64,000 nt of DNA from Thermaerobacter sp. PB12/4term (GTDB lineage Bacteria; Bacillota; Sulfobacillia; Thermaerobacterales; Thermaerobacteraceae): positions 2,294,001 through 2,358,000 of the forward strand of contig NZ_CP048407.1 in assembly GCF_003403315.2 (NCBI RefSeq). Direction: 5' to 3'. The stretch's first letter is position 1; each line of letters opens with the position of its first letter. Below the pieces are notes generated by a model that was not told the DNA's origin, ran no database searches, and saw only the letters and a program-made list of their open reading frames with translations. Positions 1 through 1,286 of this stretch are shown in pieces. The position numbers and the translations under genes were made by a program.

Positions 1-146
1 TTCGCGCGGGGTGACGGCAAGGTCTACCGGCACCCCACCCCGTTATTGAAGAATTTCCCTCGTCCTTCCTTCCCCGGCGGGCCACTCCACCGGCCGGTGG
101 GCCTTCGCCGGTGGTAACATCGTACTGATACGGGAGGTTCGGAGCC
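1..146. other. Left edge, no assignable gene
   Basis: The plus frame beginning at base 1 is open to a TAA at 115-117 and could be the last 38 codons of a gene cut by the window edge, but the peptide is not recognisable. The only clear signal is a GGGAGG ribosome binding site at 132-137 serving the GTG start at 147. Confidence 0.3.
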
Positions 147-1286
147 GTGGTCCGTAAGCCGCGGGTGACCGGCGAGTTCGTCCGCGTCGACGAGCGGCTC
201 TACCGCCTTCCGGGCGTCTTCGCCCGGTTCGACGGCCTGGTGGCCGCATTCCTCCACGGCAGTTACAGCACCGCGCACCAGACGCCCCTGAGCGACGTGG
301 ACCTGGCCGTGGTCTACCGGGCGGAGCGGCTTCCGGACCTCCGGGAACTCGTGGACCTCCAGGGTGCCGTGGAAGACGCCCTGGACCTCGAAGACGGGTT
401 CGTCACCGTCCTCAACCGGACGCCTTTGCCCTTTCGGTTCCGCGTCCTGGCCAACGGCCGACTGCTCTACGTCACCGATCCCGTGGCCCTGGCGGACTTC
501 CGGGAGCGCGTGTGCAAGCTCTACGGGGATTTCGCCCCCGACTACCGGCGCCTGGCGCTGGACTACGACCGGGCACTCAAGGAGGCCTACGCCCCGATGG
601 TCGAGATAGCGCCTCCCGGTCCCTCAGGCGGTCCCGTTGATTCCGGCGACCAGCGGACCACGGACGCCGACGAGGCGCCGGTTACCCCCTATTCTCCTGC
701 CGGTCTCCCGCGTTCCGATGCCGCGGGTTCCGGCTCTGCAGGTTCCGGCAACCCCGGACCGGCGGACGAACCCGGCCGGCCGACGGCAGGCCCGCGCCGG
801 GACGGCCCCGAGGGCGTGCCGGAAACGCGGCCGACAATGAACGGCGAGCCCCCAACCACCCCGTTGGGCGTCATCGACCGGGAGAAGGTACGGGATAAGC
901 TCGACTTCATTCGGAGGAACCTGGTGCACCTCGAGGCCCTCGCCCGGCGCGGGCCCGCGGCCTTGCGCGACGACAAGATCGCCGAGGCCGCGGCCGTCCA
1001 TATGCTACAGACCTCCATCGAGGCGATGATCGACGTGGCCAACCACGTGGTGGCCCGCCTGGGGCTGGGTGTTCCCAGGTCGTACCGCGAAGCCTTCGAC
1101 CTGCTGGTGCAGGCCGGGATCTTCCCCGCGCAGCACCGGGCCGCCTTCCACCGGATGGTCCGCTTCCGCAATCGCGCGGTGCACCTGTGCGACCGGATCT
1201 CGCCCGAAGAGGTTCATGCGATCCTGGCCCGTCCCATGGGGGACTTCGACCTGTGCATTGGAGCCGTGGTCCGCCGGTTCTTCTAA
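147..1286 (+). CDS. Fused MNT nucleotidyltransferase-HepT (MntA-HepT type) protein
   Basis: Single 379-residue chain joining two modules that are normally separate genes of a toxin-antitoxin pair. Residues 30-130 form a minimal nucleotidyltransferase with GSYS (38-41) and the metal pair D50/D52. Residues 240-379 are an all-helical HepT-like RNase domain with the motif RNRAVH at 341-346. In known MntA/HepT pairs MntA adenylylates a tyrosine two residues after that histidine in HepT; here the position is Cys348, so this route looks unavailable. A Pro/Gly/Arg-rich linker (about 170-235) separates the modules. The GTG start follows GGGAGG. It stands alone, with no partner toxin or antitoxin next to it. 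Family call is firm; activity as a TA system is inference. Confidence 0.82.
   Translation: MVRKPRVTGEFVRVDERLYRLPGVFARFDGLVAAFLHGSYSTAHQTPLSDVDLAVVYRAERLPDLRELVDLQGAVEDALDLEDGFVTVLNRTPLPFRFRVLANGRLLYVTDPVALADFRERVCKLYGDFAPDYRRLALDYDRALKEAYAPMVEIAPPGPSGGPVDSGDQRTTDADEAPVTPYSPAGLPRSDAAGSGSAGSGNPGPADEPGRPTAGPRRDGPEGVPETRPTMNGEPPTTPLGVIDREKVRDKLDFIRRNLVHLEALARRGPAALRDDKIAEAAAVHMLQTSIEAMIDVANHVVARLGLGVPRSYREAFDLLVQAGIFPAQHRAAFHRMVRFRNRAVHLCDRISPEEVHAILARPMGDFDLCIGAVVRRFF

Follow-up and report, generated by a model that had tools for sequence, protein, structure and literature searches.

A fused MntA–HepT protein without the acceptor tyrosine in Thermaerobacter sp. PB12/4term and the recurrence of this loss among related fusions

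The window, i.e. the whole stretch of 64,000 nucleotides of Thermaerobacter sp. PB12/4term that was analysed, contains a gene in which an MntA-type nucleotidyltransferase (MNT) and a HepT-type ribonuclease are encoded head to tail (Table 1). As the original prediction stated, both modules belong to one chain, translated from an open frame of 379 amino acids. The HepT domain is matched by NF047751 over residues 251–368 with 102.3 bits (cutoff 60), and the MntA domain by NF047752 over residues 30–131 with 62.4 bits, just over the threshold of 60. The Pfam assignments, Polbeta/NTP_transf_2 and HepT-like, agree with those of NCBIfam. Two further predicted features were confirmed: the nucleotidyltransferase signature GSx10DxD is complete (G38-S39-x10-D50-V-D52), and the RX4HxY motif of HepT reads R341-N-R-A-V-H346-L-C348, with cysteine at the position of the AMP-acceptor tyrosine. 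The fused protein is present as a single copy in the 2.82-Mb single-contig genome.

Table 1. Features of the fused MntA–HepT gene, in positions of the window
Feature	Position	Strand	Remark
Fused MntA–HepT gene	147..1286	+	379 aa, GTG start, TAA stop, open frame
Shine-Dalgarno-like GGGAGG, ~9 nt upstream of the GTG start	132..137	+	read from sequence
MntA-type nucleotidyltransferase domain, aa 30–131	234..539	+	NF047752, Polbeta; fold match 6m6u_A and 8xeo
GSx10DxD catalytic motif, aa 38–52, intact	258..302	+	
Phe85, position of the third metal ligand (SoMntA D71)	399..401	+	alignment mapping; PMC7641770
Linker, Pro/Gly-rich, predicted disordered, ~aa 152–240	600..866	+	length varies between species
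HepT RNase domain, aa 251–368	897..1250	+	NF047751, PF01934; fold match 5yep_C, TMt 0.91
RX4HxY motif, here RNRAVHLC	1167..1190	+	Arg341 and His346 kept
Cys348 (TGC)	1188..1190	+	Tyr (TAC) in relatives
TTG codon right before GVIDREKV	862..864	+	possible, weak internal start for free HepT

An AlphaFold model based on a 73-sequence alignment shows two well-folded domains with a mean pLDDT of 82.9, separated by a linker in which the pLDDT falls below 50 at residues 171–233. The helix of the MntA domain runs on to residue 148. Foldseek matches were 5yep, 7bxo, and 7ae2 for the HepT half and 6m6u_A and 8xeo for the MNT half. The model is a monomer and is silent on contacts between the domains.

The fusion was also predicted to fix the ratio of the modules at 1:1. 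This part stands less firmly, as ratios of 2:6 or 2:2 are known from two-gene complexes (PMC11586414) and an internal start could release additional HepT. The codon directly before the HepT domain is TTG in the window gene and in one congeneric species (G136), and ATG in another (G138); no clear Shine-Dalgarno sequence was seen upstream of it in any of the three species. Another ATG, at residue 230, lacks conservation in G138. Judged by these sequences, an internal start yielding free HepT is possible but weak.

The fusion does not stem from an assembly error, as it is common to three species and the genome consists of one contig. G136 and G138 carry the same in-frame fusion, with 79% overall identity between the G136 and window proteins, and both read RNRAVHLY. 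The codon at the acceptor position is TAC in these two species and TGC in the window gene, and the change is private to the window species. Conservation of Cys348 across the homologous fusions, which the original prediction put up for checking, is therefore rejected: the sisters have tyrosine, the very outcome named there as refuting, and the cysteine is a point mutation and not a trait of this fusion family. The nearest species by the neighbouring SIMPL gene (97% identical), G137, retains only the first ~70 MNT codons. In that congeneric genome, the truncated MNT is followed in frame by an RsgA-type GTPase, itself complete, and the two form a chimeric frame of 464 amino acids (L011:1498–2892).

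In the nearest relatives outside the genus (G074, G007, and G009), MntA and HepT are encoded by separate genes that overlap or are spaced by a few bases, and the tyrosine is present. The closest unfused relative found is the pair of the metagenome-assembled genome Clostridiales bacterium RBS10-35 (G074, L031), with 67% identity in MNT and 62% in HepT; unlike the window protein, it is encoded by overlapping separate genes and reads RNRAVHLY. From the states of these relatives, the order of events is two genes, followed by in-frame fusion in the ancestor of the genus, followed by the exchange of tyrosine for cysteine in the window species only. Neither phage records nor viral contigs yielded relatives in the scans run for a mobile or phage origin.

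Two observations concern the surroundings of the gene. Immediately before the window begins, a gene similar to 3-hydroxyisobutyrate dehydrogenase (L034:4627–5586) is seemingly frameshifted, as its NAD_binding_2 match begins only at profile position 88; the corresponding frame in G137 is continuous (L011:1–828). Downstream, a short frame at 2190–2400 on the minus strand (RLISDPDRRLAAAYGVRRDLPVIGRF...) resembles the C-terminal remnant of a peroxiredoxin of the AhpC/TSA (Bcp) type, with a sub-threshold PF00578 score of 22.3 bits (cutoff 26).

The relation between fusion and loss of the tyrosine was surveyed across one phylum with a profile that joins MNT to HepT head to tail. A second fused family was collected with its own profile, and plasmids were covered by tblastn. 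In-frame fusions without a stop codon were separated from ordinary gene pairs before the tyrosine column was read. This yielded 17 readable distinct fusions: the window gene (G000), G136, G138, G079, G198, nine members of the second family, G644, G646, and an open reading frame on a Cytobacillus plasmid, in which the tyrosine is present. Among the unfused loci, 123 of 136 HepT frames reach the motif, the other 13 being truncated or frameshifted before it.

The tyrosine is missing from four of the 17 fused proteins and from none of the 123 unfused ones, the latter being the best matches within the phylum surveyed (Fisher's exact p 1.6e-4, or 1.3e-3 when the window gene that prompted the survey is left out). 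The residue is cysteine in G000, G079, and G585, in each case through a TAY to TGY change, and deleted in G198; phenylalanine never occurs. Two of these four, G079 and G198, are draft genomes. In G079 (L017) the motif is RNRAVHIC, while the 303-residue frame of G198 (L039) reads RNRAVHI-DE. In the latter, the GS motif of MNT has become RS, and DxD as well as the HepT arginine and histidine remain. G585 (L107) is a single-contig genome and belongs to the second, more compact family, which comprises G397, G443, G484, G585, G588, G590, G593, G601, and G602. It reads RNAIVHVC, compared with RNAIVHVY in the other eight. An alignment of seven members shows no variation around the motif apart from the tyrosine, with cysteine in G585 alone. 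Since 13 of the 17 fusions keep the tyrosine, fusion does not force its loss.

General decay of the fused HepT domains was considered as the cause of the tyrosine loss and is not supported, as other invariant positions are kept. Asp296, His300, Arg341, Asn342, and His346 are retained in all 17 fusions. When ten HepT columns with at least 90% conservation among the unfused proteins were compared, the tyrosine was the sole column to deviate strongly in the fusions; a leucine column (Met364 in the window protein) deviates weakly. According to a HepT tree built without the tyrosine column, fusion arose about six times and the tyrosine was lost four times, in every case on fused branches; these account for 8.2% of the tree length. 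An independent-pairs test of the association had four to six pairs, too few to reach significance. In the sequences surveyed, acceptor loss tracks fusion, not general decay.

The leading, though tentative, reading is that the window protein derives from a type VII toxin–antitoxin system as a chromosomal single-chain form, in which fusion would make AMPylation dispensable and control would be exerted by contact in cis. With clearly more reserve, it can be proposed that the joining of MntA and HepT converts an AMP-controlled toxin–antitoxin pair into a contact-controlled single-chain RNase switch, from which the acceptor is repeatedly lost while the RNase site is kept. The ancestral pair was joined in frame through a flexible linker of ~80 residues before the genus diversified. 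The MNT domain, together with its long C-terminal helix, could then occupy the HepT cleft at a very high local concentration, which would remove the strict need for AMP transfer to the tyrosine. The acceptor would thereby be free to go, and the survey shows its loss on at least four occasions, always in fusions. In the window genome, a recent TAC-to-TGC change arose on a branch under little constraint, where phenylalanine has also taken the place of the third metal ligand. As G198 suggests, the MNT active site may sometimes be lost along with the acceptor, which makes this protein a candidate for pure contact control.

Contact control in cis was one of the options in the original prediction. 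It predicts that the RNase residues are kept and the acceptor is lost, and the survey pattern matches this without proving it. Several observations count against the single-chain explanation, namely the weak constraint on the window gene (see below), the truncation in G137, and data on the Shewanella oneidensis system. There, MntA transfers three AMPs to Tyr104 of HepT, MntA D39E/D41E still binds HepT and neutralises it poorly, and HepT Y104A stays toxic and is poorly neutralised. Binding without transfer was judged insufficient, in measurements performed in trans (PMC7641770). Moreover, the RX4H residues of a Legionella system were reported not to form the RNase site (PMC11586414), so the retained arginine and histidine need not mean RNase activity.

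A considerable, if lesser, possibility is decay of the gene in the window species: a tyrosine-bearing fusion would once have been functional, selection on it would since have relaxed or ceased, and Cys348 would be one of several random changes without a new mechanism. Such a history would fit the private nature of Cys348 and the G137 copy, broken after codon 70. Within the genus, pairwise dN/dS is 0.22–0.39 for the MNT half and 0.36–0.54 for the HepT half, with 0.22–0.42 for neighbouring genes. The branch leading to the window genome carries ~10.5 silent and ~17.5 replacement changes, and its pN/pS of 0.53 (MNT) and 0.74 (HepT) is not distinguishable from neutral. Two of the replacements, S85F and V84G, lie next to the metal site. 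At position 85, D, N, S, E, or Q occurs in all but one of 116 unfused MNTs (115), and both sister fusions have serine. The protein in this genome may be drifting. Against decay, the frame of 379 residues is free of stop codons, with every RNase and GSx10DxD residue preserved. Neutral loss would also leave unexplained why the acceptor disappeared from four fused proteins and no unfused one with Arg and His kept throughout. In favour of the single-chain reading, G585 shows a dN/dS of 0.14–0.27 against its sisters despite its cysteine; an acceptor-less fusion can therefore occur in a constrained family. Taken from sequence, the window protein is probably no longer an AMP-controlled toxin–antitoxin; it would be either kept quiet by contact or on its way to becoming non-functional.

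Domestication as an enzyme, argued for MNT-HEPN fusions in general by Anantharaman et al. 2013 (PMC3710099), is improbable here. Domesticated proteins of the kanamycin nucleotidyltransferase and GlnE/GlnD type resemble the window protein in combining a nucleotidyltransferase with a HEPN-like helical domain, but their HEPN part is typically devoid of RNase residues (PMC3710099), whereas R341 and H346 are present in the window protein and their equivalents in all 17 fusions. The MNT of G198 has, in addition, lost its GS motif while its HepT domain retains both residues. Least probable is a role of Cys348 as a new acceptor, with AMP on the thiol, or as a redox switch replacing the tyrosine: three of the four losses did lead to cysteine, a nucleophile, but a TAY to TGY transition is a single step that mutation alone easily provides, so no such role is needed to explain it, the fourth loss is a deletion, and Phe85 occupies the third metal-ligand position of the window protein.

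That HEPN domains of the DUF86 type are "occasionally fused to MNT" was already known (PMC3710099), and this general statement is the only mention of fused HepT/MntA in the literature searched, in which repeated acceptor loss in fusions was not found. What is new against this literature is the acceptor-less form, not MNT-HEPN fusion itself. Taken alone, the window protein is a minor oddity, and the interest lies in a recurrence confined to fusions. Fusions without the acceptor but with the RNase site represent an evolutionary experiment on the share of MntA action that is chemical (AMP transfer) and the share that is due to binding. The G585, G079, and G000 proteins, placed beside their tyrosine-bearing relatives, make this question directly testable.

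Among characterised systems, HepT/MntA of S. oneidensis (SO_3166/SO_3165; PDB 5yep, 6m6v, and 7bxo) shares with the window protein the domains, the MNT-first order, the folds, RX4H, and GSx10DxD. The window protein differs in forming one chain with a linker of ~80 residues, in having Cys348 in place of Tyr104, and in having Phe85 in place of D71. The hetero-octamer of S. oneidensis, with six HepT and two MntA, cannot form from the fused chain by itself. HEPN-MNT of Aphanizomenon flos-aquae (PDB 7ae2 and 7ae9) has the same folds, and its 2:2 complex corresponds to the stoichiometry expected of a fusion; it differs in being encoded by two genes, bearing the acceptor tyrosine, and being controlled by AMPylation. 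In the second fused family, the same two domains were joined independently, and one member, G585, likewise has tyrosine replaced by cysteine. This family lacks the long linker, shows ~20–25% identity to the window protein, and has kept the tyrosine in eight of nine members. A further case of joining is Cmr1-MntA (PDB 9z7q, chain I), a solved chain that unites an MntA domain with a type III-B CRISPR subunit; this suggests that MntA has been recruited into other complexes by fusion, too.

Compared with type VII toxin–antitoxin systems as a class, the window protein has the HepT-family RNase domain, the MntA-family adenylyltransferase domain, RX4H, and GSx10DxD. The third metal-binding carboxylate is replaced by Phe85 and may be non-essential, since N or S is found at this position in the wider clade. 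The antitoxin-first order is kept, but in one continuous frame instead of two separate adjacent genes, and the acceptor tyrosine of RX4HxY is Cys348 (codon TGC). As both the acceptor and the separate genes are missing, the window protein is, as far as its sequence tells, best called a fused, acceptor-less derivative of the type VII systems rather than a member of them.
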